Source: Photobacterium toruni (GTDB lineage: Bacteria > Pseudomonadota > Gammaproteobacteria > Enterobacterales > Vibrionaceae). From it: a stretch of 64,000 bases of DNA. The DNA lies in NCBI RefSeq assembly GCF_024529955.1, contig NZ_AP024856.1, positions 62,001 through 126,000 on the forward strand, in the 5' to 3' direction. Positions 1,786-30,983 of the stretch are shown here, piece after piece. The notes under the pieces were generated by a model. The model did no database searches. It was not told the DNA's origin and saw only the letters and a list, made by a program, of their open reading frames with translations. Both the position numbers and the translations under genes were made by a program. The stretch's first letter is position 1. Each line of letters begins with the position of its first letter.

Positions 1786-1931
1786 TACTTTTTACTCCGA
1801 GTAAAAGGTGTGAACACTCTACTTTTTACTCCGAGTAAAATTAATTCACTCTACTTTTCACTCCGTTTGTTTGTACTTTTTACTCCGTTTATATGTACTA
1901 TTTACTTCGTTTGTATGTACTTTTTACTCCG
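1786..1931. repeat. Six iterons, candidate origin of the first replicon
   Basis: The 14-mer TACTTTTTACTCCG (with 1-2 mismatches in some copies) starts at 1786, 1820, 1852, 1874, 1896 and 1918. The last four copies are spaced exactly 22 bp, two helical turns. In the first two copies the unit extends into the palindrome TTTTACTCCGAGTAAAA. Position right upstream of the minus-strand initiator gene suggests a Rep-binding origin or copy-control region. Confidence 0.72.
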
Positions 1932-1977
1932 GCTTTGTATTTTAAGATACTGTTTTTTATGAAGAATAAACACCCAT

Positions 1978-9086: not shown

Positions 9087-9099
9087 ATAATGAGGGTGT

Positions 9100-14504: not shown

Positions 14505-15022
14505 TTAAAATTATCTTAGTTTCGGCCATTGCAGCCAGCATGGCACCGAGTGTATTTGCGCAAACGTGTAACGATAAAATGGTACGTTCCAATGAACAGT
14601 CTCAGTTTATTTTAAATGATAGTCGTGGTGTAGTAACAGATGCTGTAAACGCATTAGATTGGCAGATTTGCCCACTCGGCATGAGCTTTGAAAATGGCGA
14701 TTGTATCGGAACGGCAACGCAGTTCGATTCTTGGAAAATGGCTCTAGATGCTGTCAGTAGCTTCAATGCTTCAAGTGATGTGCAATATCGATTACCGACA
14801 ATTATCGAGTTAAGTTCTATCGTCGAACGCAGCTGCTCATCGCCGGCTATTGATGTTGCTGCATTCCCATCCACACCTAATGCATGGTTCTGGTCTTCTA
14901 CATATACATTTGGCGCGAACGATGTTGATCTAGGCCGTAAGATTAATTTTGAAGATGGCCTAGAATTTGATAATCGTGCTAATAGTAATCGGCATATTCG
15001 TCTGGTAAGGTCATTGCGCTAA
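14501..15022 (+). CDS. Exported Lcl_C (DUF1566) domain protein
   Basis: 173 aa with a signal peptide ending at VFAQ. It is essentially a single DUF1566 domain: ALDWQICPLGMSF, WKMALDAVSSFN, YRLPTIIELSSIVERSC, AWFWSSTYTF and HIRLVRS, each typical of the family. It overlaps the preceding Lcl_C lipoprotein by 4 bp and the next gene by 1 bp, so the three are one translation unit. The molecular function of the domain is unknown; it is common in exported proteins. Confidence 0.72.
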   Translation: MIKIILVSAIAASMAPSVFAQTCNDKMVRSNEQSQFILNDSRGVVTDAVNALDWQICPLGMSFENGDCIGTATQFDSWKMALDAVSSFNASSDVQYRLPTIIELSSIVERSCSSPAIDVAAFPSTPNAWFWSSTYTFGANDVDLGRKINFEDGLEFDNRANSNRHIRLVRSLR

Positions 15023-15384
15023 TGATCAAACTTTTATCTTCATTATGCCTAACAATACTGTTGGGCATAATATTAGTCCTCACATTGGACTATAAAGCAG
15101 GGGTAGAAATAAATACTAATGTCGATAATCAACGCCAACATATTAAAGAGAGTTACGCATCAGATACCAACCTGAGTCATTTTGCTCAACAACATTCTGG
15201 CCTGAGAAACATAACACTTATTTCTACGAACATTGAACACAACAAATTGGTTAGTTCATTTTGGTCAGTCACGTTTAATGACGACACTAATACCATGGTT
15301 TTTGGTATTGATGGCAAAGGGGACTGGATTAATACCCACGCTTTAACAATGACGATGCAATCGCCTGCACCGTTTAAATCCTGA
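15022..15384 (+). CDS. Small membrane-anchored or exported protein
   Basis: 120 aa starting at the stop of the preceding gene (TAATG overlap). One N-terminal hydrophobic segment (LLSSLCLTILLGIILVLTL) is followed by a soluble domain with TLISTNIEHNKLVSSFWSV. It looks like a type-IV-pilin-like or simple signal-anchor protein, but no motif allows a firmer call. Confidence 0.55.
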   Translation: MIKLLSSLCLTILLGIILVLTLDYKAGVEINTNVDNQRQHIKESYASDTNLSHFAQQHSGLRNITLISTNIEHNKLVSSFWSVTFNDDTNTMVFGIDGKGDWINTHALTMTMQSPAPFKS

Positions 15385-15529
15385 TTATACAGAGACTGCA
15401 TTAGACATTAATGCAGCACCTGTTTCTCGCTTAAAATATTTAAACACTTCAATATCCTCTCCTTAATTTAAATCGCATCTATGCCTAGCGAATATAGTAG
15501 ATCATACGACCGCTATTTGGGTATTCACT

Positions 15530-17914
15530 ATGCGAAATCTACTGTTACTACCATTTATTTTTTTATCGTCATTTTGTTATGCGGAAATTGTTGAATATAC
15601 ATTTACCGATACTAACAATAATAGTGTGAGTAAAAAATCGGATGTTCAATTCCTCAATCCTTCATCAGATCTCGATGTTTTTCTCTCTGGTGGTTTGGAT
15701 AGAAAAATGAAATTGAGCATTCGGGATTTAAGCACAAATACCAATATCTACGAACACACATCAAATTACATCACCATCGATGATCGACTTCAATCAAGTG
15801 CAGGTTTGGAATATTACGCAAAAATATTTTCAGTCCCTCGGTTGACTGATGGCAACTATAGGCTTACTCATCAACTCATCGATAATACAAATAGCATCGT
15901 AGTAACAGAAATTAAAGACATCACCGTAGATACTGAACTGCCGAGTTTTGGCGAGTGGAGTGCGCAAGGTGGCTATGGTATGGATGTCTCAAGTGAGACA
16001 TTTAAGCTTGGACGTGGTGGGTCTGGAAACAACCGTTTTTTCTTAAACGACGTTAGCGACAATACAGAAATCGATAAAGCTCTGCTTGTGCTATATCGTG
16101 AAGATGGCAGTGAATATTCACGACGTAATGCTATATACGATCCCGTCAATACTCAGTTAACCAATCACTACCGCTATCTCTTTCCGTTAAGCAATTTGGA
16201 TGAAACCTTCACCGTAAAATACGAAATTACCGACATCGCAGGTAATGTTTCACACCTATCTAGTAAAAAAATGATGATGGATAATGATCCGGGTGAAAGG
16301 ACACTCGTTGGATTTTATAATCCTTCCAAGTCAGGCAGTGTTGTTCCTGGATTATCAAATTATGAAGCCTATCGATCAGGCATGACGGTCTACACCAACC
16401 CTGTTCGTTTCGTCTATCGCATTCCCAAAACAAACTGGTACGAATACAGCGAAGGTGGATTAAGAGCCACGAATGGCGCAGGCTCGGTAAGTAAAGTCAG
16501 CGAAGACGATGACAATGTTTATGTTCAATTTATTGCCCCTTACAATTTTTTCGATGGCAATTACATTCGCTTCATAAACAAATATGAGTGGGGTGGCGCT
16601 GGTGTCGGCTATTCAGTAACGTTGGATCCAAGTGCAAGAGCATCACCATATTTAGCTGGTGTTGACTATTACTACAGCGACGTTGGCTGGATGAGCATGT
16701 ACCGTTACGCCATCCAGAATGATCAACTCCCTGTCTCTATCTCTAAAGTGCGGATAAGAGTGAGTGCTCGTAACTACGACCAGATTGGTTATCACATTGG
16801 CGGTAATTGCACGATCCCCGCAGGAAGCACATCTTGTGAATACCCGTGGTCATATACAATGGAAAGTGGTGAGGCTGGTTATCTTCACTCTAATGCAACC
16901 GTCTATGATACTGACAGGACTCTTAGAAGTAACCCTCGCTGGGCAGAGGTCCAGTTTAACGATAAACACTATCCAAGCATCAATGCTGTTTACGATGATG
17001 TCGAAAAAAGCATTACTGCCAATATTAATCAGCCCGGTGCCGGTTACTATTTTGACCGGTTGCGTTTATCACACGCTTGGCTAATCAATGCCGATAATGG
17101 ACAACAAATTAATGCAAGTGGTGGGTTCGTCAGTCGTAATGGCGAAAATTATGTTTATAAGTGGTATCTAAAAGACATAGCAGAAGGGGACTATCAGATC
17201 CGTGTTAGAGCTAAAGAACGACACGGCCCACAAACTGATTCAACTGCCTTTTCCTACCGCAGTGATCGAACACCTCCAGTGATAACCTTTGCATTTAAAG
17301 ATCAACCGTATGTCGAAGGTATGCTAATCAAAGGACTCGAAAACATCAGTTTCAAAATAGAAGACGCCAGCGATGTGGCAATCACATCTATTAATTTTAA
17401 AGGCGGTCCAGCATCAGATAACGTCGAGTTGGCATGGAATAAAAAGGATGACTATTGGGGACTAGAATATCCTCGAACTTTTCCATCGCAAGACGAGGCT
17501 GATATGTACATTCTTACATTAACAGCCACTGATGCGTTCGGTCAAAGTACGACCGAGGTTTACAGTTTTAAGTATGAACCCAACAATCTATTTTCTGTCG
17601 AGTCTGTTAAAACCCTCGCAGTCAATAGGGTACTGAGAGATAGCACCAATAAACCGCACATCTTAATTAAGTCCAACCAATTGCGTTCTGACAACGGCAA
17701 CCTTGCTTTTGGTCCTCAACAGGTATTCGTCACTGTTCGTTCTGATTCACCGATGCCACTGGAGGTACATAACACTGTCATACGTCCAGGCGAAACAAAA
17801 GGTATCGATGTAGATATAGGTTCCGATGGTCGCTTGTACTTACCTTTGATTCCAGCAGAGAGCGGCATAGAAGGTAAGGCTCAATACATGCTCGAAATTA
17901 ACGGAATAAATTAA
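15530..17914 (+). CDS. Large exported protein with Ig-like domains (DUF4165-like)
   Basis: 794 aa with a signal peptide (MRNLLLLPFIFLSSFCYA). The body has repeated beta-sandwich signatures: DGNYRLTHQLIDN...DITVDTELP, YEITDIAGNVSHLSSKKMMM, EGDYQIRVRAKERHG followed by SDRTPPVITF, and LTATDAFGQSTTEVYSFKYE. It resembles the DUF4165/Ig-like giants carried by some conjugative elements of Vibrionaceae and Shewanella; that label is from memory. It is likely exported to the surface, where it may affect cell contact or mating recognition. It is followed 10 bp later by an L,D-transpeptidase-like gene. Confidence 0.6.
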   Translation: MRNLLLLPFIFLSSFCYAEIVEYTFTDTNNNSVSKKSDVQFLNPSSDLDVFLSGGLDRKMKLSIRDLSTNTNIYEHTSNYITIDDRLQSSAGLEYYAKIFSVPRLTDGNYRLTHQLIDNTNSIVVTEIKDITVDTELPSFGEWSAQGGYGMDVSSETFKLGRGGSGNNRFFLNDVSDNTEIDKALLVLYREDGSEYSRRNAIYDPVNTQLTNHYRYLFPLSNLDETFTVKYEITDIAGNVSHLSSKKMMMDNDPGERTLVGFYNPSKSGSVVPGLSNYEAYRSGMTVYTNPVRFVYRIPKTNWYEYSEGGLRATNGAGSVSKVSEDDDNVYVQFIAPYNFFDGNYIRFINKYEWGGAGVGYSVTLDPSARASPYLAGVDYYYSDVGWMSMYRYAIQNDQLPVSISKVRIRVSARNYDQIGYHIGGNCTIPAGSTSCEYPWSYTMESGEAGYLHSNATVYDTDRTLRSNPRWAEVQFNDKHYPSINAVYDDVEKSITANINQPGAGYYFDRLRLSHAWLINADNGQQINASGGFVSRNGENYVYKWYLKDIAEGDYQIRVRAKERHGPQTDSTAFSYRSDRTPPVITFAFKDQPYVEGMLIKGLENISFKIEDASDVAITSINFKGGPASDNVELAWNKKDDYWGLEYPRTFPSQDEADMYILTLTATDAFGQSTTEVYSFKYEPNNLFSVESVKTLAVNRVLRDSTNKPHILIKSNQLRSDNGNLAFGPQQVFVTVRSDSPMPLEVHNTVIRPGETKGIDVDIGSDGRLYLPLIPAESGIEGKAQYMLEINGIN

Positions 17915-18847: not shown

Positions 18848-19852
18848 TTAACTGATAAGACTCAGAATACGTTTTAGCTTATCTGGATGGTTCAGTGCTA
18901 TGTCGATAAGTGATGTTATCTGTCCAGTTTGATCTTCAGTTATATTGCGCATTTTAATTACTTTATTCGATTTTGACGTTCGTTCCAGTTGAACAGAGAC
19001 TTTGCCATCATCAGAAGCATAAATGACTTCAGGCGCTTTCTTATTAGTTACTTTATCTTCATGTGCATTTAATTTCTTCACACGACGATTGAGGAGTTGG
19101 CTCACTTTCTTTTTGAACACATCTTTATTTGCATCAGCATTTTTCTCAGAGACATCTTTGACTAATTCTTTGAAAAACTGCTCAATGTCTTGGCCAGCTT
19201 CCTTTACCAACTCCAAAGCCGTTATATAACCTAAGCTATCACGTTCCGATATATCAAGACCACGTTTCGTGAACGTATAATAAATAGGAGCAGGGACTTT
19301 AAATGCTCTTAAACTACGACTTAGTTTTGTTTCAGATATCCCTTTAACAGCGGCAAACTCTTTCTGTGTACCTTCCCACTTATCTAACTGCGCACTGTAA
19401 TACTTACCGAGCTCGTAACTGCTGATCGGTTTATGATTATCTGCAGTCAAAACAAGAGACTCAATTTCAGAATCTGTAAGCTCTTCTTTGATCAATTCGT
19501 AATCAAGTGGACAGTCATCCATGATTGCGCGTGCACGACGTCGAGAACCGTCAATAAAGTAAATCAGGCCATCACTGCCTTTATAACAAAGACAAGGGCT
19601 GGTCTGTGTGTCTTTGAGATCGGCTAAATCTTCTAGAGAATCTTCGGTCAGCAGCTCTTGAATACGAAAGTTCTGTAAGGGAATAGCTGAATGTTTCTCT
19701 AAATCTTCACGACCTTTGAATGTTTGTAGAGAAACAGTGACAGGCTCTGTACGGCCTTTAATACGAATTTTTCGTGCCTTAACCGCTAAACTATTTGCGT
19801 TACTGCCACCAACATAGGCGCCTTTTTGATGTCCTAATTGACCAATTTGCAT
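18848..19852 (-). CDS. sopB: ParB/SopB-type plasmid partition protein
   Basis: 334 aa. The N-terminal domain follows F SopB closely: PVTVSLQTFKGREDLEKHSA, RIQELLTEDSLEDLADL, the ParB motif FIDGSRRRARAIM, then LTDSEIESLVLTADN and ISSYELGKYYSAQL. A helix-turn-helix follows (TQKEFAAVKGISETKLSRSL). The C-terminus (KVSVQLERTSKSNKVIK) resembles the SopB dimer domain. ParB binds centromere sites and stimulates the ParA ATPase. It is co-transcribed with the parA gene 2 bp upstream; a 20-bp palindrome downstream is a candidate site. Confidence 0.9.
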   Translation of the reverse strand: MQIGQLGHQKGAYVGGSNANSLAVKARKIRIKGRTEPVTVSLQTFKGREDLEKHSAIPLQNFRIQELLTEDSLEDLADLKDTQTSPCLCYKGSDGLIYFIDGSRRRARAIMDDCPLDYELIKEELTDSEIESLVLTADNHKPISSYELGKYYSAQLDKWEGTQKEFAAVKGISETKLSRSLRAFKVPAPIYYTFTKRGLDISERDSLGYITALELVKEAGQDIEQFFKELVKDVSEKNADANKDVFKKKVSQLLNRRVKKLNAHEDKVTNKKAPEVIYASDDGKVSVQLERTSKSNKVIKMRNITEDQTGQITSLIDIALNHPDKLKRILSLIS

Positions 19853-19854
19853 AA

Positions 19855-21102
19855 TTATTTCTCTAAGTTCAGTGTTTGCATTTCAATTTTAAACGTATTT
19901 ACGAACGCCTCAGAAGAGGATATGGCTTTATGGAATTCAGTTTTCGACGTTTTAGAACGTGACTGAACAAGATCTAATACTGTACGGCCAGTTGAAGCTG
20001 CTTCAAGAAAAGCTTCACTACGATTTATGTAATTAGATATCAAGCGATCTTGTACTGAGCGACATAAGCGGCCAACAATGTCTTTTTCTTCACGCGACTT
20101 CGGATCATGATTAACAACAGCGGCTTTTAACCATTTTATATTTGTTCCATGAGATGGTAGTTGTTCTAATCGTGTAGCCAAGGTACCCATGAAATTAGTT
20201 GTCGATGCTAGATCTATAAATTTAGGCGTGATTGGCACCAGTAATGCATCAACAGCTTCAAATAAACACCATAAAATTGCATTATCTGCAGGCGGGGTAT
20301 CAATTAAAACAGTATCGAAATGCTTATTTAAAATAGGTTTGATGTTATCTCTGAAATCACAAATTAGTGCCAATTTTTGTTCATCTTCGAGATTGAAGAA
20401 CACTCCAACTAAGCGATCATCAGTAGGGTAAGCAATTAAGGTTTTCAAGTTAGGTAAATGGGTATTGAACATCACAGCAAGAATAATCTCTTCCAATGTA
20501 TGCCCATTATCTAAAAAGGTCTTAACTGGATTATCATCTTCAAAATTTCGAAGGAGTATATCGATGAAGGTAATGATTTCTTCATCTTTTTGTTCTGCTG
20601 AGTTGAACGTTAATGTTGAACCCACACTACCTTGGGGATCCATATCGATAACCAGCACCCGCTGTGAGTCAATTAAATCTAGTGCTAATCCAACAGCAAG
20701 CGTCATGGTCGTCGAGCTCTTGCCAGTACCGCCTTTGTGGTTAGTAATAGCAATGAGTTTTGATGAGTAAAGATCTGAATAATATTGTTCAACACCCATA
20801 AATTCACGCAACGATGCAATATCATGGCGAGAATAGTAATGCGATTTAGCTATGACGATAGGTTCAATTTGATGTTCATTGCTTTGGTTGTACTGCTCAA
20901 TTTTTGTTGATAACGTTTTGTTTGTCATATCAAGAAATTTGCTCAACTCACCTTTCTTCATCGAATGATTCAAGATCCGCTGATCAACGCCGGAAAATAG
21001 ATTTTCATCATTAACTTTGATACGCAAAGCTTCACCAAGAGAAGGGCGCTCTTTCACCAATCTCCCGTATAAGTCTGAACAAACTTGATTAGCAACGAAC
21101 AT
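19855..21102 (-). CDS. sopA: ParA/SopA-type partition ATPase
   Basis: 415 aa, type Ia ParA. An N-terminal ~100-residue DNA-binding region (with FLDMTNKTLSTKIEQYN) precedes the ATPase domain. The deviant Walker A is NHKGGTGKSSTT (about residues 118-130), Walker A' is VLVIDMDPQGSVGSTLT and Walker B is FDTVLIDTPPADN. Such ParAs position plasmids on the nucleoid and repress their own operon. A consensus-like promoter lies 35-60 bp upstream. It is convergent to the tra side and divergent from the 183-bp repeat array. Confidence 0.93.
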   Translation of the reverse strand: MFVANQVCSDLYGRLVKERPSLGEALRIKVNDENLFSGVDQRILNHSMKKGELSKFLDMTNKTLSTKIEQYNQSNEHQIEPIVIAKSHYYSRHDIASLREFMGVEQYYSDLYSSKLIAITNHKGGTGKSSTTMTLAVGLALDLIDSQRVLVIDMDPQGSVGSTLTFNSAEQKDEEIITFIDILLRNFEDDNPVKTFLDNGHTLEEIILAVMFNTHLPNLKTLIAYPTDDRLVGVFFNLEDEQKLALICDFRDNIKPILNKHFDTVLIDTPPADNAILWCLFEAVDALLVPITPKFIDLASTTNFMGTLATRLEQLPSHGTNIKWLKAAVVNHDPKSREEKDIVGRLCRSVQDRLISNYINRSEAFLEAASTGRTVLDLVQSRSKTSKTEFHKAISSSEAFVNTFKIEMQTLNLEK

Positions 21103-21135
21103 AACAACAAAACCTCTAAAATATTTTGAATATTT

Positions 21136-21164
21136 ATAATAATAGATAAATTAAGAATAAACAA
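21136..21164 (-). promoter_or_regulatory. Sigma-70-type promoter for parAB
   Basis: On the minus strand TTGTTT (21159-21164) and TATTAT (21136-21141) are separated by exactly 17 bp, and the -10 lies about 34 bp from the parA ATG, with AGAGG before the start. ParA-type proteins usually autoregulate such promoters. Confidence 0.55.
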
Positions 21165-21410
21165 ATAGAATTACACCATAGAATAAAGAATTCGCCTTTC
21201 ATGAGGTAATTACTCAGTTATGTAAATTATTTTGTGTTACAACCTCAATGTGACATCTATCACGAAACGTAATTAGATGATTTTTGATACCAATAAGATT
21301 GAAATCGATATTTTCTTAAAACAGAAAGTTTGTAAATGATTCCAATAAATATTGTATAGAGTGACGAGTTGGCCGCTAGTCAAAGCCACTTCTTGGCAGC
21401 TCTCAGTAAG

Positions 21411-22695
21411 AGATCTAAATAAAAGTGATCAAGTAAATTACGCCACATCATTTAAAATCAGTATCTTAGCAAACGCTGATGTTCACTTTAGACAAAGAAC
21501 CCCCACGTTACTCTAAAGTGAGATAGTTCGTATTGTGTCTAAAGTGACAGGTGGACGATTAGGCAATGTCCGTTCTAGGCAGTTTTCAGTGAGAGATCTA
21601 AATAAAAGTGATCAAGTAAATTACTCCACATCATTTAAAATCAGTGTCTTAGCAAACGCTGATGTTCACTTTAGACAAAGAACCCCCACGTTACTCTAAA
21701 GTGAGATAGTTCGTATTGTATCTAAAGTGACAGGTGGACGATTAGGCAATGTCCGTTCTAGGCAGTTTTCAGTGAGAGATCTAAATAAAAGTGATCAAGT
21801 AAATTACGCCACATCATTTAAAATCAGTGTGTTAGCAAACGCTGATGTTCACTTTAGACAAAGAACTGCATATTCCTCTAAAGTGAGATAGTTCGTATTG
21901 TGTCTAAAGTGACAGGTGGACGATTAGTCAATGCCCGTTCTAGGCAGTTTTCAGTGAGAGATCTAAATAAAAGTGATCAAGTAAATTACGCCACATCATT
22001 TAAAATCAGTGTGTTAGCAAACGCTGATGTTCACTTTAGACAAAGAACCCCCTCGTTACTCTAAAGTGAGATAGTTCGTATTGTGTCTAAAGTGACAGGT
22101 GGATGATTAGTCAAACCCACTTCTTGACAGCTCTCAGTGAGAGATCTAAATAAAAGTGATCAAGTAAATTACACCGAATTAATTAAAATCAATAGCTTAG
22201 CACGTATTTAAATTCACTTTAGACAAAGATAGCCCGTATTTGTCTAAAGTGAAATAGTTCAAGTTGTGTCTAAAGTGACAGGTGGACGATTAGTCAAACC
22301 CACTTCTTGACAGCTCTCAGTGAGAGATCTAAATAAAAGTGATCAAGTAAATCACGCTGCATCATTACAAATCAGTGTGTTAGCAAACGCTGATGTTCAC
22401 TTTAGACAAAGAACTGCATATTCCTCTAAAGTGAGATAGTTCGTATTGTGTCTAAAGTGACAGGTGGACGATTAGTCAATGCCCGTTCTAGGCAGTTTTC
22501 AGTGAGAGATCTAAATAAAAGTGATCAAGTAAATCACGCTGCATCATTTAAAATCAATCTGTTAGCGAACAGTGGTATTCACTTTAGACAAAGATAGCCC
22601 GTGTTTGTCTAAAGTGAAATAATTCAAGTTGTGTCTAAAGTGACAGGTGGACGATTAGTCAAACCCACGTCTAGACAGTTTTCAGTGAGAGATCT
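21411..22695. repeat. Array of seven ~183-bp repeat units (left part), RctB-type control region candidate
   Basis: AGATCT boundaries at 21411, 21594, 21777, 21959, 22142, 22325, 22507 and 22690 give a period of 182-183 bp. Each unit carries AAAAGTGATCAAGTAAAT (a GATC-containing core), two to three copies of TCTAAAGTGA or its complement TCACTTTAGA, and a conserved CAGGTGGACGATTAG. No open reading frame fits. The array leads to an RctB-like initiator. The GATC core TGATCAAG is close to the RctB 11/12-mer of Vibrio chromosome II (ATGATCAAGAG), as I remember it. Likely initiator-binding iterons or a copy-control/incompatibility region; a partition centromere is an alternative. Confidence 0.8.
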
Positions 22696-22711
22696 TAAAT
22701 ACAGCCGTTTT
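22696..22711. repeat. Left junction of the bacteriocin insert: fragment of the dispersed repeat
   Basis: Directly after the last left-hand AGATCT the sequence changes to TAAATACAGCCGTTTT. It matches the tail of the dispersed intergenic repeat found at 46925-46942 and 50147-50165. It marks where foreign DNA enters the 183-bp array. Confidence 0.55.
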
Positions 22712-22713
22712 GA

Positions 22714-22725
22714 GCAAATTATTGC
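22714..22725. promoter_or_regulatory. GCAA-ATTA-TTGC palindrome upstream of the bacteriocin
   Basis: A perfect GCAA-N4-TTGC palindrome lies about 60 bp upstream of the first possible bacteriocin start. The same motif occurs in triplicate upstream of both hcp genes. No -24/-12 promoter was seen after it. Confidence 0.4.
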
Positions 22726-22782
22726 CTACGTTATTTGAAGGGTATCCTATACGGACTTATTTATTCTTTATTAGATCGGGTC

Positions 22783-22940
22783 ATGGTAGGAAAAATTGTT
22801 AATGTAGACCAACTGGGTTTTGACGAAGCCTAAGGATTGAAGGCGATTGGTCTAGATTTTCTGATAATGAATTAGCGGCGCTATCTTCAAGCAAAAGTGC
22901 AAGTTCAATTCGTAATGAATTAGAAAGTGGTGACATAGCC
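22783..22940 (+). pseudogene. Frameshifted 5' portion of the bacteriocin gene
   Basis: ATG 22783 opens MVGKIVNVDQLGFDEA and then stops at 22831. The -1-corrected frame, open from 22830, reads LRIEGDWSRFSDNELAALSS and continues without interruption into the bacteriocin frame. The simplest reading is a single lost base near 22829. Restored, the toxin would be about 540 aa. Either translation now begins at an internal start, or the gene is inactive, or this is a sequencing error. Confidence 0.5.
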
Positions 22941-24401
22941 TTGATAGTTGATTCTCCATCCTCTCCGATGCTTAGTAAGATGGAAAATGGATTTTCAGTT
23001 TCCCAACAAAATGCACCATTACTCTCTGATTATGGCGTAAAAAAAATAGGTCACCGTTTTTCTGGAAACTATTATGGTGGGACTGTTGCAAAGTCTGGAG
23101 GGTCACTTCATCCAGCTAAACCAATGCCAACTTATATCCCTGAGCCTGTTATTAAAACGCAACCTTCTATTTATGATCCGATAAAAATTAGCGACAATTT
23201 ATCTAAACCAAAAACAAATAAAATTTTTGCTAAATCGTGCTCTCAGCCATTTGGTAATACAGAAGCTTGTCAAAAAAAAGAATCCCTTAATAATGCTTTT
23301 CGTTTTTGGGGGATGTTCTTCAGTTCTGCTGAGGCCTTTGTTCCTCCTTTACCTATTACGGCTGTGGCGGGGGCTGAAATAACACTCGGTGCAGGTGCTG
23401 CACAAAATAAATCAATAAATGGAAAAACAGCTTTAGCACTCACTAAAGTCGTTGGTAATTTCAAGGATAAGAAATTAGATAATATGCGATTTTCGGTTGA
23501 AATATCTCCGGTGATGTCTGTCGCAGTTATGTTGTTTAAAGCCTTACAGTTTGGTGATAAAACGCAGTATACAGAAGATGAATTACGAAATAGGGAAGAG
23601 GTACAAAGCCGTATTCGTGTACAAATCACAGAGCCTGTGGGTGATAATGTTTATCCGACAGTACAAGCCTACCATGTTGATGATACTCGTATCCCTGTTC
23701 GTTATGTCAGTAAAAATGAACAAGCCCAATATTCAGTTGCTTTAGAAGAAAATGGCCCAACGATATATTGGTCACCAGACGAGACTGGAAATCAAGTTCC
23801 CCATACAACGCCCTCTCAAGATGATGGGGTGTCATTCGGTGATATTTGGGTAAATCCACTCAGTGATGCGGTTAATGACCCATCGACGGTATTACCGATG
23901 CCAGCTGAGAGTGATTGGCAAGATAGAATTCTTGTGTTCCCAGAGGATTCAGGGATTGAGCCATTGTATCTGGTCTTTAAGACAACTGCTCGTAATGAAC
24001 CAGAGAAGGTGTCAGGGCAAGGAAAAGATGTTAAATGGAAAGATGGTTATTGGCTTGGAGTGGCTGCAAACAAAGGGCAAGGACAATATATACCAACAAA
24101 GATAGCGGATGCATTACGAGGGCGGGAGTTTAAAAGATTCTCTGATTTGCAGACGGAACTTTGGAAAGAAGTTGCGAAACATCCTGAATTATTTGAACAA
24201 TTTTCAGATTTAAATAAAAGTCAAATTCAACAAGGAAATGCACCTTTTTCAAGACATAATTGGAAGAAATTAAAAAGGTATTCACTACATCATATTGAGC
24301 AAATTCAGCATGGTGGAGGGGTTTATAATATAGATAATTTAAGCGTTGTTACTCCTAGATTACATTGGGGAGAAATACATGGTTCAGGAGATAGAAGCTG
24401 A
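22941..24401 (+). CDS. Colicin E/S-type pyocin-like HNH DNase bacteriocin
   Basis: At least 486 aa from TTG 22941 (frame open from 22830). The C-terminal ~130 residues parallel the colicin E2/E9 DNase: DVKWKDGYWLGVAANKGQGQ, IPTKIADALRGREFKRFSDL, LWKEVAKHPELFEQF, PFSRHNW, then the HNH core YSLHHIEQIQHGGGVYNIDN and VVTPRLHWGEIHG. One extra residue separates the last two His compared with colicin E9. The middle (residues ~230-340) looks like the S-type pyocin domain. A hydrophobic Ala/Gly-rich segment lies near 135-160. It kills by DNA cleavage after import. The immunity gene overlaps its stop by 1 bp (TGATG). Confidence 0.86.
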   Translation: MIVDSPSSPMLSKMENGFSVSQQNAPLLSDYGVKKIGHRFSGNYYGGTVAKSGGSLHPAKPMPTYIPEPVIKTQPSIYDPIKISDNLSKPKTNKIFAKSCSQPFGNTEACQKKESLNNAFRFWGMFFSSAEAFVPPLPITAVAGAEITLGAGAAQNKSINGKTALALTKVVGNFKDKKLDNMRFSVEISPVMSVAVMLFKALQFGDKTQYTEDELRNREEVQSRIRVQITEPVGDNVYPTVQAYHVDDTRIPVRYVSKNEQAQYSVALEENGPTIYWSPDETGNQVPHTTPSQDDGVSFGDIWVNPLSDAVNDPSTVLPMPAESDWQDRILVFPEDSGIEPLYLVFKTTARNEPEKVSGQGKDVKWKDGYWLGVAANKGQGQYIPTKIADALRGREFKRFSDLQTELWKEVAKHPELFEQFSDLNKSQIQQGNAPFSRHNWKKLKRYSLHHIEQIQHGGGVYNIDNLSVVTPRLHWGEIHGSGDRS

Positions 24402-24652
24402 TGAATTTAAAAAAAAACATTGAAGAATATTCAGAATTTGATTTTTGTAATTTACTAAAATATTTAAATAACGCGCAAGAAAAGGAAGCTGATGAGATCA
24501 TGGATTGGTTAGATGACAATATTAAGCATCCTGATGGTTATGGTTTAATTACTCATCCAATTGAATGTGGTATTGAGGATTCACCTGAGGCTGTTATAGC
24601 AGAACTAAAACGATGGTATAGAGAGCAAGGATTATTTTTGTTTAAAGAATAA
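24401..24652 (+). CDS. Colicin E/pyocin-type DNase immunity protein (Im9-like)
   Basis: 83 aa, same size as Im9 (86 aa). IEEYSEFDFCNLLKYL matches helix I of Im9 (ISDYTEAEFLQLV), and HPDGYGLITHP followed by EDSPEAVIAELKRWYREQG matches HPSGSDLIYYP and DDSPSGIVNTVKQWR. The family binds next to the HNH active site of the cognate DNase and blocks it. Overlap with the toxin stop indicates coupled translation. Confidence 0.9.
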   Translation: MNLKKNIEEYSEFDFCNLLKYLNNAQEKEADEIMDWLDDNIKHPDGYGLITHPIECGIEDSPEAVIAELKRWYREQGLFLFKE

Positions 24653-24694
24653 ACTTGTTAGTCCAAGTTAGTAATGTCACATAAAAAACTAGTG

Positions 24695-24730
24695 CGCATA
24701 AGATGGCATATGTTAAATACAGCTATTATT
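24695..24730. repeat. Diverged copy of the dispersed intergenic repeat core
   Basis: CGCATAAGATGGCATATG followed by TTAAATACAGCTATTATT aligns with GCATTAGATGGATACTG-TTAAATACAGCTGTTTTT at 46908-46942. With the fragment at 22696 it brackets the toxin/immunity pair. A separate hairpin (AACACGTTT...AAAACGTGTT, about 24749-24775) follows in the same 320-bp gap. Confidence 0.5.
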
Positions 24731-24843
24731 GACAAAATTTACGTAACACGTTTCTGCCCCAAAACGTGTTAGAGCATCGGAAAATTTAAGATTCTTGGTA
24801 TCAAAAAACGAACGTTTGATTAAAGGTAGATAAACCCAATCGG

Positions 24844-24855
24844 GCAAGTTATTGC
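24844..24855. promoter_or_regulatory. GCAA-GTTA-TTGC palindrome (GGGCAAGTTATTGCCC)
   Basis: A 16-bp near-perfect palindrome with core GCAA-N4-TTGC in the gap before the gene at 24975. It is the same motif as in the hcp upstream regions. No sigma-54-like -24/-12 element was found between it and the gene. Confidence 0.4.
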
Positions 24856-24974
24856 CCAGATAAAACTAAGTGTATGATATTCATCATGTATTGATACTAA
24901 ATCAACTCACAATAAAAACTTTAAAAAATCATTTCATAATTGTGAAAATAAATATTAATTAGGATTGAAGTTAA

Positions 24975-25424
24975 GTGAAATATTGCATAGAAAATATAGA
25001 AACACTTTTAGCCAATAAGATAAATGAGGCATATTTAGAGTTTGGTTCAAAAGAACTTAAGATCATTGATATTGGTGCATTTCCATGGCATAAGTCGATT
25101 GAATTATCTTTTCTCTTTACTGAACATGATCCTGAAGATGAAGATGATATAGCTTCTTGGGCCAATTATGATTACTCTGGATTAACTGAGGGTAAATGGA
25201 AAGAAGCAGAAGAACTCGCTTCTGAAATGTTCTCACTCTTTGGTGATTGTAATGATGGAAAAGGGCCGTTTATTGACTTCGCTAAAGCAGCCACTTCAAA
25301 AAAAGTTAAAGAAATTATAAATCAATTTAATTTATCACCTGATTTTACTATTCAAGTTTTACATCCAGATGATGACAGTAATGGCAATTACTGTGAGCTA
25401 ATAAATCAAAGTGAAATAAAGTAG
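24975..25424 (+). CDS. Acidic cytoplasmic protein, possible orphan immunity protein
   Basis: 149 aa from GTG 24975 (ATG absent; AGGATTGAAG upstream). Soluble and strongly acidic (EHDPEDEDDIASWANYDYSG, LFGDCNDGKGPF, LHPDDDSNGNY), with no signal peptide. Placed just after a DNase/immunity pair and before another immunity-like gene, it fits the pattern of accumulated orphan immunity genes in polymorphic toxin loci. No family recognised, so function is inference. Confidence 0.5.
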   Translation: MKYCIENIETLLANKINEAYLEFGSKELKIIDIGAFPWHKSIELSFLFTEHDPEDEDDIASWANYDYSGLTEGKWKEAEELASEMFSLFGDCNDGKGPFIDFAKAATSKKVKEIINQFNLSPDFTIQVLHPDDDSNGNYCELINQSEIK

Positions 25425-25486
25425 TCTTATATAAATTACCGAGTCAGCGTAATCTACGAGCAAGCCATATCAGATATAGCCCCTTT

Positions 25487-25876
25487 TTAGGGGTATATGT
25501 AGCAACGTTCTATATTGTTTATTGAAATTAGTATCGTTGTTGTTTCTATAATGATTTCTCCATTCTCTTTTGTTATTACCATGTTCATTTTTGGTTTTTC
25601 GCCAGTAATTTGAATTTCACATTTTGATGTGATGTTCTTTGTCCCTATTCTTGGTGGTTCTAACATGCTTAGTGCTCCAATTGTAAAGTACACAGCATTT
25701 ACACCTTCTTTTTCCCACCTTTCATGAATCTCTTGATCTGAAAGGAAAAAGTAACACCTTATAGTTATACTGTTTCCTTTCAATATAATATCTTCTAAAT
25801 AAATCGTTTCTGGTAACGTATATGACTTAAATATATGAAACCATGCTTTATCATTAATTTTTTCTAACCAATTCAT
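25487..25876 (-). CDS. Imm50-like immunity protein
   Basis: 129 aa. The layout MNWLEKINDKAWFHIFKSYT then LEDIILKGNSITIRCYFFLS then VYFTIGALSM and CEIQITGEK resembles Imm50-family proteins, small beta-rich immunity proteins of contact-dependent or T6SS toxins. Convergent to the preceding gene; its start lies next to the IS91 end at about 25880, so its promoter may have been altered by the insertion. No cognate toxin is adjacent. Confidence 0.45.
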   Translation of the reverse strand: MNWLEKINDKAWFHIFKSYTLPETIYLEDIILKGNSITIRCYFFLSDQEIHERWEKEGVNAVYFTIGALSMLEPPRIGTKNITSKCEIQITGEKPKMNMVITKENGEIIIETTTILISINNIERCYIYP

Positions 25877-25911
25877 GATCTTAATTTTTCCTCAAGAGCA
25901 TCAACCTGCGG

Positions 25912-27174
25912 TTGCGACTTTCCCGCTGTAAGTTCATCGAATACAATTACGGCATCAGAATTACGTTAGCTCCGACCATGTATAACCCGAATAGTATCAA
26001 TGCTCTTTTTACCTTAGATAAATGTTTTCATAATGCGCTGAAAAACGGTCACGTTTTTCGCACAGCAGAGCTTGAAGCAGTGGTCAAAGTATTATCATGT
26101 AAAACACATAAGCTCGGTGCTAAAGCGTATAGTTGCACCAACCCTCGGTGCTCTCATGAAAAACGGGTATGTAATACCTGTAAGAGCAAGCTCTGCACGT
26201 CATGCGGCCAAAAGGCCACAGAGCGTTGGATAGCGGTCATCAATTCAATCCTCCCTGATTGCAAATATCGGCATATTACGTTCACGATGCCAAAGGCATT
26301 TTGGCTAATTTTTCAATATAACAGAGTGTTATTGAACCATCTGTTTTCCCTTGCCGCCAACACATTAATAAAGCTTGCGAAAAAGAGAGGGGTAACCGTC
26401 GGTATTTTTTCGGCTCTGCATACCTATGGTCGACAAATAAATTTCAATTGTCATATTCATTTATCAATAGCGGAATTCGGCTTAAATCGACAGGGGAAGT
26501 TGAAATCATTTTCCTTTAAGTTTGATTTGCTCATGAGCCAATGGCGTTATGAGGTCATTAACCTGTTAAGAACACATTATCCCGTATTAATTTTACCGCC
26601 AGAATTGGAGGTGGAAGGCAATAGCCCTCAGTCCTGGACTGCATTTTTAGACAGAAACTATAATCGTCATTGGAATGTTAATGTTAATGTTAATGTTGCC
26701 AAAAATACCACTCATAAGACGCATACCGCGAAATATTTAGGGAGTTACGTGAAAAAGCCGCCGATAGCGGCTGCTCGGTTGGCTGATTACACCGGTGGGG
26801 ATGTGACATTTACTTATCTAGACCACAGAAGTAAAAGCTATAAAGATTTAACCTTAAGCCAAACAGAAATGATGCTGAGGATATTGAACCATGTGCCTGA
26901 AAAACACTTCAAAATGATCCGTTATTTTGGTTTTTTATCGAACCGTTTACGGGGACGCTTATTGCCATTGATATATAAACAACTCGGACAAGAGGTTGTT
27001 ACTGCCAAAACCTTTGGTTTTGCAGCGATGATGAAAGCATTTTTGAAGGTTGATCCGTTCAAATGTATTTTGTGTGGTGCTCGAATGGTATTCACGGGAT
27101 TTATTATAGCAGGATTAAAAGTAGGTCAATTAGTATCAGCAATAGAAAATATTGCGTTACAGAGGCCAATTTAA
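25912..27174 (+). CDS. IS91-family transposase (HUH, rolling-circle)
   Basis: 420 aa from TTG 25912; ATG 25978 (MYNPNSINALFTLDKCF) is an equally good start. An N-terminal zinc-finger region has C-rich spacing (YSCTNPRCSHEKRVCNTCKS, LCTSCGQKATERW). The HUH-type metal motif is NCHIHLSIAEFG, and the catalytic tyrosine region is HTAKYLGSYVKKPP. IS91 transposases nick one strand at the ori end and replicate through the element. An in-frame hexanucleotide run, NVNVNVNV, near residue 255 looks like slippage. Confidence 0.9.
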   Translation: MRLSRCKFIEYNYGIRITLAPTMYNPNSINALFTLDKCFHNALKNGHVFRTAELEAVVKVLSCKTHKLGAKAYSCTNPRCSHEKRVCNTCKSKLCTSCGQKATERWIAVINSILPDCKYRHITFTMPKAFWLIFQYNRVLLNHLFSLAANTLIKLAKKRGVTVGIFSALHTYGRQINFNCHIHLSIAEFGLNRQGKLKSFSFKFDLLMSQWRYEVINLLRTHYPVLILPPELEVEGNSPQSWTAFLDRNYNRHWNVNVNVNVAKNTTHKTHTAKYLGSYVKKPPIAAARLADYTGGDVTFTYLDHRSKSYKDLTLSQTEMMLRILNHVPEKHFKMIRYFGFLSNRLRGRLLPLIYKQLGQEVVTAKTFGFAAMMKAFLKVDPFKCILCGARMVFTGFIIAGLKVGQLVSAIENIALQRPI

Positions 27175-27230
27175 GGCCGTAGTCAGGGTAGATCTATCCG
27201 AAATCAGTGTTTATGATCAAAACCGCTTTA

Positions 27231-27340
27231 ATTCCATCCAAATTTTCTCATTCTTTAATCTACTTATAATGAAAAAGGTCAAAACCACGTTTTGTATTCG
27301 TTTTTCTTGATGGATAGTAATCTTTCAGATTCCTATCCAT
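27231..27340. repeat. IS91 terminal segment, present twice in the window
   Basis: This ~110-bp end contains an inner hairpin built from ATGGATAG and CTATCCAT. Its reverse complement is found at 50167-50276 with a single difference seen by eye. Confidence 0.8.
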
Positions 27341-27341
27341 A

Positions 27342-27997
27342 TTAAAAGTGATCAAGTAAATCACGCTGCATCATTTAAAATCAATCTGTTAGCGAACAGT
27401 GGTATTCACTTTAGACAAAGATAGCCCGTGTTTGTCTAAAGTGAAATAATTCAAGTTGTGTCTAAAGTGACAGGTGGACGATTAGTCAAACCCACGTCTA
27501 GGCAGTTTTCAGTGAGAGATCTAAATAAAAGTGATCAAGTAAATTACGCCGAATTGATTAAAATCAAAAGCTTAGCACGTATTTAAATTCACTTTAGACA
27601 AAGATAGCCCGTATTTGTCTAAAGTAAATAGTTCAAGTTGTGTCTGAAGTGACAGATGGACGATTAGTCAATGCCAGTTCTAGGCAGCTCTCAGTAAGAG
27701 ATCTAAGTAAAAGTGATCAAGTAAATCACGCTGCATCATTACAAATCAATCTGTTAGCGAACAGTGGTGTTCACTTTAGACAAAGAACTCCCACGTTTCG
27801 TCTTAAATGAGATAGTTCATATTGTATCTAAAGTGAGGTAGTTCATATTGCATCTAAAGTGAGGTAGTGAGTATCATGTCTAATGTGAGATAGTTTATAT
27901 TGTATCTAAAGTGAGATAGTGAGTATCATGTCTAATATGAGATAGTTTATATTGTATCTAAAGTGAGATAGTGAGTATCATGTCTAATATGAACTTT
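27342..27997. repeat. Right part of the 183-bp array, decaying into short repeats
   Basis: One full unit (27342-27522, differing at one base from the unit ending at 22695), a second unit to 27704 and a partial third. From about 27800 the pattern collapses to 30-40 bp repeats of (T)ATCTAAAGTGAGATAGT and GAGTATCATGTCTAATATGAGATAG. The initiator-type motif TCTAAAGTGA thus continues almost to the DnaA box. Confidence 0.78.
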
Positions 27998-28004
27998 TAG
28001 GATC

Positions 28005-28346
28005 TAGATTAGAATTTCATAAATTCACAACAATAATTTATAAAATTATTTGATTTAGTTGTTTTTTTCCCACCAAATCTGTGCACAACCCTGTGGATAA
28101 GCTGTGATGTATAATTTGATCTCTAACTCTATCAGTTAGATCTCTTGCTCTGTATCTGAGATCTTTATAATTAAAATGCCGGATCTATGATCAAAAACAT
28201 ACGATCAGTAATCCAAACAATGAGATCTCTAAGCCTAAATAATGGCAAAACATTGATAGTAAAGGGTTTTTCTGGTTGTTTTCCCTGAGCAGATCAGAGA
28301 TCCGATACCTGATATCAAAAATACGATATATTAAAGGAAACAATAA
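28005..28346. other. Candidate RctB-type replication origin: AT-rich region, DnaA box, GATC cluster
   Basis: A strongly AT-rich segment (28015-28075) is followed by a perfect DnaA box on the minus strand (TTATCCACA, 28092-28100), and then by nine GATC sites between 28118 and 28302, many within AGATCT or TGATCA. The initiator gene begins at 28347 with AAAGGA upstream. DnaA box plus Dam-site clusters next to rctB are the layout of vibrio chromosome II origins. GATC density here is many-fold above the roughly one per 256 bp expected. Confidence 0.62.
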
Positions 28347-30641
28347 ATGATTGTTTTTGATAAAGAACAGAATTGTTATCTTGAAAATGAAAGAGTTGGC
28401 TCTGATGGTTCAATACTGCTTTTTAAGAAAAATGATCTCGACAATATAGATATTGAACGTCTTAAGCGATCAGAAAGGGATAAGTTATCGAAAATATTAG
28501 AGAATTGTACTATTGGTACTGATAACTGTTTCTCTACACTTCAAATAAGTCAAATCCTAGACAAAAAAGTACCAACAATCAGGCGTTTTATTCAAAACCT
28601 ATTAAGTACTGACTTTGCCAAAAAGGAAGCTAACTTCATACATAAAGATAATAGTCGAATAATCCTCTATGTTTTTACGCCTCAAAATAGTGAGAAAAAT
28701 GTTGTAACGAGCTACTCAACAATTACTTCCATAAGCAACATGAATAGACAGCTAACTCTTGTCGGTGATTCTAATCCAGTAGAATCAGCTCATCTGTCGA
28801 TTAATGAAAACGGTCTTCTTCAAGCTTTATTTCAAGATACAGCTATCCCTAGACATACGAGCTTTGCGAGCTGCTTAAGACCATTAACTAAAAAAAATAA
28901 TATAACTTTTACTGATTATGAAGTTAAACATTCAGAAGACTTTTCGTCTAAATTAACGGCGATAGACAAGACAGAACGAATTGCTGATATTGAACACTTA
29001 CGGTTCTTATACGTTATCATAAATCTTACAATTTCTTATTTTGAAAGGCACAAGAAACAATTTATTGTAAAAGATGAGATCGAGGCGATTTGTAGTATAG
29101 ACAGAGATCAAATGCTCACTTGGTTAATGATGGAAACTGGTTCAGAGTATTGGAAAGATCACGTTGATCGTTACATAAAAATATGGGCAAATACTGAATT
29201 TCAAAGCATATCATTGTTTAATAAACAATTCTTAAAAAATAGAAAAACACCTTTATTCAGGATTGAATATGAATTAGCTAATAGGATAGATGCTAAATAT
29301 CCAGAGATATATGTATTGAGGTGGGATAAGAACGCCTTACAATTCATTCTGTCAGAAAAGGGGCCATACGTGCTTCCGTGGTCGGTTATGGCTGGTTCTA
29401 ACCTTGCATTTATTCTATATATCGATGCACGAAAAAAATGGCCAGGTAAAGCCTCAGCAAAACAAAAATATTACTATGATCATGAACAACTAATGAATCT
29501 GTTTCCTGTTTTCACTAACAAAGGAGAAACTCAGACAGATGAGCAGTTTATCGATTTTGTCATCGTTTCTTTGTATGAACATATCAGTAAGGTAAACATT
29601 TATCTTTCAAAAAATAAACAATTTAAAACAAAGAACTATGATCACATCAAATTTTATGATCGTCTTTCTAAGATAATTGATTTTAAAAATGTTAAAGCAA
29701 AAAAAAGATATGTTTCTCGTATTCAAGCATACATTGGCGGAATCATGTTCAACTTTGATATAGAAGGGATTGGAAAAAATAAGAAAATATATACAAGAGT
29801 AGACTATAAAAAGAATGAAGTAATATTTAACTCTTTACCTGAAAGAGTACGATCAAAAACTTTTGAAAATAGTAGTTGTTTAAGCATACCAAGCGACTTA
29901 AAGAAATTCGGTTATTATACTGTTTCTGCTCAATACTATGCATCTGATGAGATAACACTGAATACACATAAAATTATAAATCCCCGTATAAGCATTAAAG
30001 AAACACGGGATGATAAGTCATACCTAAATATACCTGAAAATATAATTAATATTGTCAAAGATGAAAGACAAACAACAGAATTAACAGACTTTACTCCCAT
30101 GTTGTCAGAACATGCAGAAGAAGTATTACCGGAGTTTTTAGAGCCTGAATTACCACCTGTCGTTAAACCAAAAACAGTGAGAAATGTGAAAGCATTACCA
30201 TTTAAGGTTGCACGATTTCCGTCGGGTAGAAGCCAACCAGAACAAAATCATTTGTGGATTACGATCAATCAAAATGATAAAACGAAACAAAAATTATTAG
30301 TTAGCTATTATTCGACAGAAGATGATATTAAAAACACGATTAAAGAGATCTGTCATCTAACACATGACTTCGAGGAACGTGTATCAGAGAGAATTAATAA
30401 AAACATGTATGGCTTAAAACCAATCCACATTGGACGGCATTTAATCGATAGAAATGTTATGAATGATCTATTCAGAAATATGAATTCTGTGTTAGATGAG
30501 AATTTAAAACTAAAGAATATCGACCAACTTTACTCAATAATCTGTAATAATAAAAAGCACATTATTACATATAGCGAGAAGTGTAATCCTCTCACCGAAC
30601 CCCTCGAGTTCGTAAAACTCTTTCAACACTATTTTAAATAA
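28347..30641 (+). CDS. RctB-like replication initiator
   Basis: 764 aa with no signal or membrane segment. By-eye comparison with remembered V. cholerae RctB (658 aa) gives matching blocks in the same order: IADIEHLRFLYVIINLTISY against the RctB block MTVDDLMTLFALFTLTVQY; the wHTH-like block with YVLRWDKNALQFILSEKGPY against YILVWEPSFFEELLTRDYF; and the C-terminal LLVSYYSTEDDIKNTIKE against ITLSRYTSPQALERSITA. RctB binds GATC-containing iterons to start chromosome II replication. The GATC-rich 183-bp array and DnaA box upstream support this. It is about 100 aa longer than RctB, so it may be a plasmid branch of that family. Confidence 0.58.
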   Translation: MIVFDKEQNCYLENERVGSDGSILLFKKNDLDNIDIERLKRSERDKLSKILENCTIGTDNCFSTLQISQILDKKVPTIRRFIQNLLSTDFAKKEANFIHKDNSRIILYVFTPQNSEKNVVTSYSTITSISNMNRQLTLVGDSNPVESAHLSINENGLLQALFQDTAIPRHTSFASCLRPLTKKNNITFTDYEVKHSEDFSSKLTAIDKTERIADIEHLRFLYVIINLTISYFERHKKQFIVKDEIEAICSIDRDQMLTWLMMETGSEYWKDHVDRYIKIWANTEFQSISLFNKQFLKNRKTPLFRIEYELANRIDAKYPEIYVLRWDKNALQFILSEKGPYVLPWSVMAGSNLAFILYIDARKKWPGKASAKQKYYYDHEQLMNLFPVFTNKGETQTDEQFIDFVIVSLYEHISKVNIYLSKNKQFKTKNYDHIKFYDRLSKIIDFKNVKAKKRYVSRIQAYIGGIMFNFDIEGIGKNKKIYTRVDYKKNEVIFNSLPERVRSKTFENSSCLSIPSDLKKFGYYTVSAQYYASDEITLNTHKIINPRISIKETRDDKSYLNIPENIINIVKDERQTTELTDFTPMLSEHAEEVLPEFLEPELPPVVKPKTVRNVKALPFKVARFPSGRSQPEQNHLWITINQNDKTKQKLLVSYYSTEDDIKNTIKEICHLTHDFEERVSERINKNMYGLKPIHIGRHLIDRNVMNDLFRNMNSVLDENLKLKNIDQLYSIICNNKKHIITYSEKCNPLTEPLEFVKLFQHYFK

Positions 30642-30648
30642 TTATTTA

Positions 30649-30679
30649 CTGGCTGCATGCCCTTAAACAATGCAGCCAG
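30649..30679. terminator. Stem-loop between the initiator and a convergent gene
   Basis: CTGGCTGCAT and ATGCAGCCAG form a perfect 10-bp stem with an 11-nt loop between the converging genes. No T-run on the plus strand; on the minus strand AAATAATTATTT follows. It may serve both as a weak terminator. Confidence 0.5.
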
Positions 30680-30686
30680 ATAACAA

Positions 30687-30983
30687 TTACTCTTTCACTA
30701 CCAATGGTACTCTTACTGCTGCTTTCAATGTGCGTGCTTGGGATTTAGTCATGTTGATTTCAAGTAATTTACAAATATAATCAAATGAATAGTCCTGCAT
30801 ATATGCAACAACATCAATTGGTACACGAGTTTTAGATTTTGGCCACGAGTACAGGTAATTATCGTTATATTTTCGATTTGTTTTAGTGCAGACGTGCCGT
30901 ATTGCATCAATTGGAGAGTCGAACATTGAGATATATGTGTCTACTACAGAACTATATGGTTGTTTATCCATTATTTGGTCCAT
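30687..30983 (-). CDS. Hypothetical small protein
   Basis: 98 aa, no signal or membrane segment. The middle (MQDYSFDYICKLLEINMTKS) could be a short helix-turn-helix-like element, and it ends with basic residues, so a small plasmid regulator is possible. The start may be M1 or the second Met (MDKQPYSSV). Convergent with the initiator gene. No family recognised. Confidence 0.5.
   Translation of the reverse strand: MDQIMDKQPYSSVVDTYISMFDSPIDAIRHVCTKTNRKYNDNYLYSWPKSKTRVPIDVVAYMQDYSFDYICKLLEINMTKSQARTLKAAVRVPLVVKE

Follow-up and report, generated by a model that had tools for sequence, protein, structure and literature searches.

A probable plasmid replicon of the RctB/ori2 kind, of a diverged subfamily, in Photobacterium toruni

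The 64,000-nucleotide stretch analysed here (the window; positions 62,001-126,000 of contig NZ_AP024856.1, 217,175 bp, of Photobacterium toruni GCF_024529955.1) contains a replication locus that we assign with high probability to the RctB/ori2 kind, known from chromosome 2 of the Vibrionaceae, as a plasmid replicon of a diverged subfamily. The locus encodes a four-domain initiator of 764 amino acids (aa) and has a DnaA box with six phased GATC sites; a long array of TCTAAAGTGA boxes lies between this origin and the parAB genes. Its elements follow one another in the order parB-parA (minus strand), tandem array of about 183-bp units, boxes at a 26-bp period, DnaA box, GATC sites, A+T stretch and initiator open reading frame (ORF). 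On this reading the locus would work like ori2 of chromosome 2, and its initiator is a distant relative of RctB, not RctB proper. Since the host genome (4.5 Mb in 7 contigs) carries its canonical RctB gene on another contig (635.9 bits with PF11826, a family present in 325 of the 329 genomes of the host family), NZ_AP024856.1 is a plasmid-sized replicon beside a normal chromosome 2.

RctB-like plasmid replicons have already been published (PMC3020234 and PMC8826520, which like the other papers cited here are drawn on from excerpts), so that we describe a new diverged variant and not a new kind, and the RctB-type replicon on a plasmid that a preliminary description of this DNA had put forward is not the only one of its kind. 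New are the more diverged RctB-type subfamily, its tandem box array and its lack of the six ATCA motifs; literature searches, which mostly did not reach subscription papers, found no paper on this subfamily. The replicon helps to tell the conserved parts of the chromosome-2 system from those exchanged in evolution: it retains the four-domain initiator, the DnaA box and the six phased GATC sites, whereas a tandem box array stands in place of the six ATCA and the TTACGG motifs. It thereby bears on the question of how a plasmid became the second chromosome of Vibrio, and which origin features were added then.

The initiator and its relation to RctB

The 764-aa frame lies directly after the origin, as had been described. 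A search of 5.8 billion proteins (E up to 10, restricted to proteins sharing short exact words) returned three relatives of 94%, 43% and 38% identity, the last two from Photobacterium, and a pattern search of genome contigs added one from Photobacterium carnosum, 44% identical in the alignment. PF11826 matches none of these five members of the subfamily (for the P. carnosum protein at E up to 0.1), and in a search of the host's own genome its sole match was the RctB on the other contig. Neither a sequence search of the PDB nor one of viral contigs found a match to the window protein. Full-length relatives occur in two of the 329 genomes of the family, the host's own and one of the same genus; in 12 others the match is confined to profile positions 631-727 (E 1.5e-4 to 1e-3), the open frames concerned being 543-677 aa long.

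The tie to RctB is provided by a bridging protein, the 692-aa initiator of a 172-kb V. nigripulchritudo plasmid, which matches the window protein at 22.5% identity (E 4e-8). Its family of three sequences aligns with the window family over 629 columns (hhalign E 6e-25) and with canonical RctB at E 2e-11, and the bridge itself matches both PF11826 (29.2 bits, cut-off 27) and the RctB entry of the PDB (E 2e-7). Once the bridge is added to the window profile, host RctB is detected at positions 634-719 (E 1.6e-6), other RctB frames are matched at about 200-375 and/or 633-740, and 37 of the 394 genomes of the order, the host's included, contain a match. In the structure models the window initiator carries the four RctB domains in order, which is what distinguishes RctB-like initiators in the wide sense, and the preliminary description is thus supported in part: the initiator is related to RctB in all four domains, and the origin has the ori2 layout, with a divergent parAB operon alongside. 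RctB proper, defined by a PF11826 score above the curated cut-off, it is not. By these sequence comparisons there is at least one subfamily of RctB-like plasmid initiators that escapes the PF11826 model. That the protein is instead an ordinary Rep_3/RepE-type iteron initiator without any special tie to RctB appears highly improbable: the RepE and pi initiators have a two-domain winged-helix core in common with it, but they are a much weaker structural match, and the matches reported contain no counterpart of RctB domains I and IV.

The origin and the TCTAAAGTGA array

The perfect DnaA box described earlier is present (TGTGGATAA), and nine GATC sites indeed occupy exactly 185 bp (28118-28302). 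Six of the nine are spaced by 21, 21, 22, 21 and 21 bp, beginning 26 bp from the DnaA box, and the next two follow at +68 and +7. For nine GATC sites placed at random in 342 bp such a run of six has a probability of about 2e-4, and no other phased run above two exists among the 905 GATC sites of the contig. The 30 canonical ori2 loci compared, which are the 30 best PF11826 matches and not a random sample, all show 25 bp between DnaA box and first GATC and six GATC at 22-23 bp; in 26 of them the next two follow at +69 and +8 (69/17, 70/7, 70/8 and 66/27 in the other four). Host ori2 has five steps of 23 bp, begins 37 bp from its DnaA box and continues with +70 and +8, and the P. carnosum origin has steps of 21, 21, 21, 21 and 22 bp, 38 bp from the DnaA box, followed by +82 and +7. 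The window shares with ori2 a DnaA box followed by six helically phased GATC sites, which by sequence are the likely initiation iterons. The initiator gene and parAB flank the origin divergently, as they do at host ori2 and on the 172-kb V. nigripulchritudo plasmid, where the order parAB-origin-initiator is the same. The iteron flanks are GATCTCTAA-like in the window as opposed to GATCATGCTT-like in the host, and therefore little cross-talk would be expected. In ori2-type origins iteron binding requires Dam methylation and crtS sets the timing. For the window a dependence on Dam is only implied, by the GATC sites together with the Dam and SeqA genes of the host; the cumulative GC skew of the contig is uninformative on the working origin.

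The tandem repeats of the preliminary description are real, but the motif that it placed in each of nine units of about 183 bp, TGATCAAG, occurs ten times between 20000 and 31000 and in two blocks (seven copies from 21426 to 22522, three from 27349 to 27714). The two blocks look like a single array that cargo of about 4.6 kb interrupts (4644 bp as calculated from the coordinates). Within this cargo, 22941-27174 holds small ORFs, a gene for an IS91-family transposase and another whose product has both S-type pyocin and colicin-type DNase domains. The 10-mer TCTAAAGTGA has 30 exact copies in the array (20 direct, 10 inverted) and none elsewhere on the contig, where 0.6 would be expected in all; with one mismatch allowed, 33 copies lie in the array and five elsewhere in the window. 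A typical unit has an inverted box followed by direct boxes at +29 and +26, and the 164-bp unit of P. carnosum an inverted box followed by boxes at +27 and +31, the last with one mismatch. The P. carnosum units contain no GATC (two GATC sites in 8400-9720 of its stretch lie at the array edges, 8413 and 9455), and no ParA Walker motif was found in 22 kb around the P. carnosum gene or in an overlapping 19-kb stretch of the same genus. Because the boxes are shared without either of these, they seem to travel with the initiator.

As the key site TGATCAAG was rejected, and it proved to be the weakest cue of the preliminary description: 22 further copies lie elsewhere on the 217-kb contig, the ten copies represent one event multiplied by tandem duplication (0.0085 expected per unit), and P. 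carnosum, with its GATC-free units, conserves TCTAAAGTGA instead. Its core recurs in the regulatory half of host ori2 and of a V. cholerae-like ori2, and we retain it only as a possible 11-mer analogue. The second of these origins is termed V. cholerae-like on the strength of its sequence and of the top PF11826 score of its genome.

Each 39-mer of V. cholerae has two direct repeats of 9 bp separated by an A+T-rich spacer of 19 bp, and these sites inhibit initiation (excerpts of PMC3688505 and PMC6090056). We infer by analogy that TCTAAAGTGA may be a 39-mer-like inhibitory site; direct TCTAAAGTGA pairs 26 bp apart and free of GATC are present, similar in geometry to 39-mers, and their sequence is unlike that of 39-mers and 29-mers. 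When the host genome was searched for crtS-like sites in the form of exact box pairs, the pattern gave nine matches, all in the array. TTACGG, a motif of the V. cholerae sites according to the part of PMC11711613 available, is absent from array and origin, its three matches in 21300-28346 all lying within the cargo; host ori2 has one and the V. cholerae-like ori2 four.

We propose that the initiator would bind the six Dam-methylated GATC iterons together with DnaA, open the adjacent DNA and assist in helicase loading. The TCTAAAGTGA boxes, of which each unit has an inverted one besides the direct pairs spaced by about 26 bp, would be the functional counterpart of the inhibitory 39-mers, and by titrating the initiator and pairing with the iterons (handcuffing) they might keep the copy number low. 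Host-encoded Dam and SeqA would limit re-firing and ParAB would segregate the plasmid, and the replicon resides beside the RctB-driven chromosome of the host, from which its site sequences differ. Because it shares its host with a canonical RctB chromosome, it lends itself as a natural test case for orthogonality, for control by Dam/SeqA separately from crtS, and for the effect of array length on copy number.

Features of the replicon and of its surroundings (window coordinates)
Feature	Position	Strand	Basis
RctB-like initiator, 764 aa	28347..30641	+	ORF list, profile-profile and structure comparison
DnaA box TTATCCACA	28092..28100	-	motif search
Six GATC iterons at 28118, 28139, 28160, 28182, 28203, 28224	28118..28227	+	motif positions
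Putative unwinding stretch with GATC pair 28292 + 28299 and two ATCA	28228..28346	+	composition, motif count
TCTAAAGTGA-type boxes at 26-bp period, adjoining origin	27804..27992	+	repeat and motif scan
Right array block, 2.7 units of 182 bp	27343..27836		tandem repeat analysis
Left array block, 7.2 units of 183 bp, each with one inverted and two direct TCTAAAGTGA and two GATC	21377..22701		tandem repeat analysis
Cargo: bacteriocin-like DNase gene, small ORFs, IS91-family transposase	22702..27342		ORFs, family scans
ParA-like ATPase, 415 aa	19855..21102	-	ORF, PDB and plasmid ParA comparison
ParB-like partition protein, 334 aa	18848..19852	-	ORF, family scans, host ParB2 comparison
Second replicon, Rep-like protein, 398 aa	536..1732	-	protein comparison
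22-34 bp tandem repeats (iteron-like) beside second Rep	1786..1940		tandem repeat analysis

Weighing the assignment and its rivals

Several results count against assigning the locus to the RctB/ori2 kind. Pfam, NCBIfam and PHROGs assign the 764-aa protein to no family, and none of their RctB models matches it. The preliminary description had named a structure or profile comparison with RctB as a way to check its claim; the models do match the RctB domains, but the direct comparison of the window-family with the RctB-family profile gave a probability of only 36% (score 40.9, E 4e-4). This score exceeds those of all 60 column-shuffled controls (maximum 32.2) and of 40 unrelated ORFs (maximum 24.1); host RctB as a single sequence scored 29.0, within the shuffled range. 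In the first structure model, built from an alignment without an RctB-domain protein, RctB ranked first only at E 1.3e-3 with a mean predicted local distance difference test (pLDDT) value of 55.2, the alignment behind the second model includes an RctB-domain protein, and the match to RctB domain IV comes from Foldseek, this domain not being among the VIA-align top 50. At the origin, the six-ATCA unwinding element is missing, window and P. carnosum having two ATCA each and host ori2 and the V. cholerae-like ori2 six each; in V. cholerae the six are bound as a single strand (PMC11711613). The stretch before the gene has only 67% A+T as compared to 61% for the contig. No TCTAAAGTGA box within two mismatches occurs in 28101-28346, so that no 29-mer-like autorepression site is seen there, though an operator of differing sequence may exist. 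Among 15 RctB-family origins outside canonical chromosome 2 (described below), six have no GATC run of five or more (runs of 1-4). Finally, the same plasmid carries a second Rep/iteron replicon at 536-1940, and either of the two could drive the plasmid.

Is the RctB-like replicon then silent, or a mere back-up, on a plasmid whose replication depends on the 398-aa Rep with its 22-bp repeats? We regard this as unlikely, yet as a contender to be taken seriously. The second Rep has no meaningful Pfam or NCBIfam match, but its best relatives reside on 300-340 kb Vibrio plasmids and tandem repeats lie upstream of it; moreover, the P. carnosum relative has two Rep3 genes near its RctB-like gene, and the array of the window is interrupted by cargo. 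A silent or back-up role does not readily account for a 764-aa frame that is uninterrupted and, in four relatives (39-94% identity), conserved from end to end, nor for the conservation of iteron phasing and box units in P. carnosum, which implies selection on the origin. We consider it improbable, and more so, that the TCTAAAGTGA array serves the adjacent parAB operon as its ParB centromere and is not a regulatory array bound by the initiator. The array does begin next to parA and contains imperfect palindromes of 40-43 bp, but P. carnosum keeps the box organisation in the surroundings devoid of a ParA Walker motif noted above, a Pfam scan of 7 out of its 13 ORFs of at least 120 aa gave no ParA or ParB, and in the window the boxes continue at their 26-bp period up to the DnaA box. 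Then again, at the central 39-mer of V. cholerae ParB2 binds in competition with RctB (excerpt of PMC3688505), so ParB and the initiator could both bind the array.

Related replicons and neighbouring genes

With RctB/ori2 of Vibrionaceae chromosome 2, the RctB/ori2-type locus of the window has in common the four-domain initiator, the DnaA box, the six phased GATC iterons with almost unchanged distances and the divergent arrangement of initiator and parAB around the origin. It differs from chromosome 2 in an initiator of 764 aa (666 in host RctB) that PF11826 does not match, in a phasing of 21-22 bp instead of 22-23 bp, in having two instead of six ATCA, in its TCTAAAGTGA array, in the absence of TTACGG from both array and origin, and in lacking a box at the initiator promoter. 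RctB-like initiators are likewise found on the RctB-domain plasmids of Vibrionales and relatives (for example V. nigripulchritudo pA1066 and 172-kb plasmid, A. wodanis pAWOD_2, P. toruni and V. alfacsensis), and most plasmid relatives are annotated as RctB-domain proteins; the related initiators scanned match PF11826 at 29-84 bits and one at 24 (cut-off 27), whereas the window subfamily is unmatched. For pA1066, the excerpt of PMC3020234 (2010) describes a DnaA box, 18 repeats, parAB and an A+T-rich segment; its mini-replicon was able to replicate in V. cholerae, though not in E. coli. DUF3346 proteins have been described on Vibrionales plasmids, together with a Plesiomonas chromid (excerpt of PMC8826520). 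This chromid of Plesiomonas shigelloides has an RctB-like initiator, parAB and GATC-containing repeats beside a DnaA box (same source); its GATC run is of five, and it differs in its size of about 300 kb and in that TRF reported no tandem array upstream. Megablast of 18848-30700 against plasmids gave only short matches in the IS91 region and neighbouring sequence, none of which spans the replicon. Near the P. carnosum RctB-like gene, with its two Rep3 genes, lies a homologue of DnaN (DNA polymerase III beta clamp; 15316-16476 of its stretch).

Host RctB is matched by 37 of 72,556 plasmid records, of which 12 (60-90% identity, 0.56-2.1 Mb) are probably chromosome 2 filed as a plasmid, the other 25 being below 60%; PLSDB flags four of the 37 as conjugative and six as mobilizable. 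The 15 origins outside canonical chromosome 2 comprise nine from these 25 records, three from genomes of the order and those of the window, of P. carnosum and of the 172-kb plasmid of V. nigripulchritudo; the scan reached no further than 2.8 kb upstream of the gene (window 8 kb, V. nigripulchritudo 440 bp). In nine of them, the window included, five or six GATC sites form a run at 20-24 bp. Upstream arrays of units above 100 bp occur in six (the window, P. carnosum, two genomes of another family of the order, V. alfacsensis and P. ganghwense), arrays of more than seven 34-53-bp units in three, and no array in six (for V. nigripulchritudo as seen over 440 bp only). The two genomes of the other family (E about 1e-50), whose initiators match PF11826 at 45 and 47 bits, have an array of GTCCAA boxes with many direct pairs 35-36 bp apart and, beside it, six GATC at exactly 22 bp; in the one scanned, ParA and ParB follow the initiator. 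The plan therefore recurs with changed sequences, and the boxes differ where compared (TCTAAAGTGA as opposed to GTCCAA). On four RctB-family plasmids there is no GATC run above two, though short tandem repeats lie upstream of the initiator; such run-poor plasmids may have lost control by methylation or never gained it. On A. wodanis pAWOD_2, a DNA replication terminus site-binding protein is annotated next to the RctB-domain initiator (5898-6878 of its stretch). As a tentative idea, which we judge more apt to fail than to hold, RctB-family plasmids might form a wide class in which the iteron engine is kept and the few chromosomal 39-mers are repeatedly replaced by long, expandable tandem arrays of own boxes. 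With such an array as an adjustable brake on its copy number, a plasmid would be released from chromosomal crtS control and remain compatible with the RctB chromosome of its host.

The partition genes are not the SopAB operon that had been assumed. The nearest relative of the ParA is a plasmid ParA of V. nigripulchritudo (33% over its length, 229 bits) and its nearest solved structure is PDB 7npd (E 1e-30), which we take to be V. cholerae ParA2; host ParA2 is more distant (29%, 125 bits), and a SopA equivalog was rejected at 29 bits with the SopA model NF010259 (cut-off 725). The ParB matches host ParB2 (28%, E 5e-15) and, below the cut-off, the NCBIfam plasmid ParB model NF010252 (73.6 bits). 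Conjugative transfer of the plasmid, also part of the preliminary description, is not supported. Genes of an F-type type IV secretion channel are present (TraE, TraB/TrbI, TraC, TraN and TrbC, with TraK and TraV below the cut-off), but a search of the whole genome at E up to 1e-3 found no relaxase of PF08751 (MOBF), PF07514 (MOBH) or PF03432, the relaxase families searched, and no coupling protein of PF12696; of 14 control genomes, 1, 2, 1 and 4 exceeded the cut-offs for PF08751, PF07514, PF03432 and PF12696, respectively. Elsewhere on the plasmid contig, a TssM-like protein of a type VI secretion cluster is encoded at 62351-64000 of the window, with TssA and TssK further along, and a RAMP-superfamily (CRISPR-related) protein at 14501-16678 of another stretch. 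A 383-aa ORF of the window contains 66-bp tandem repeats (45857-46778).

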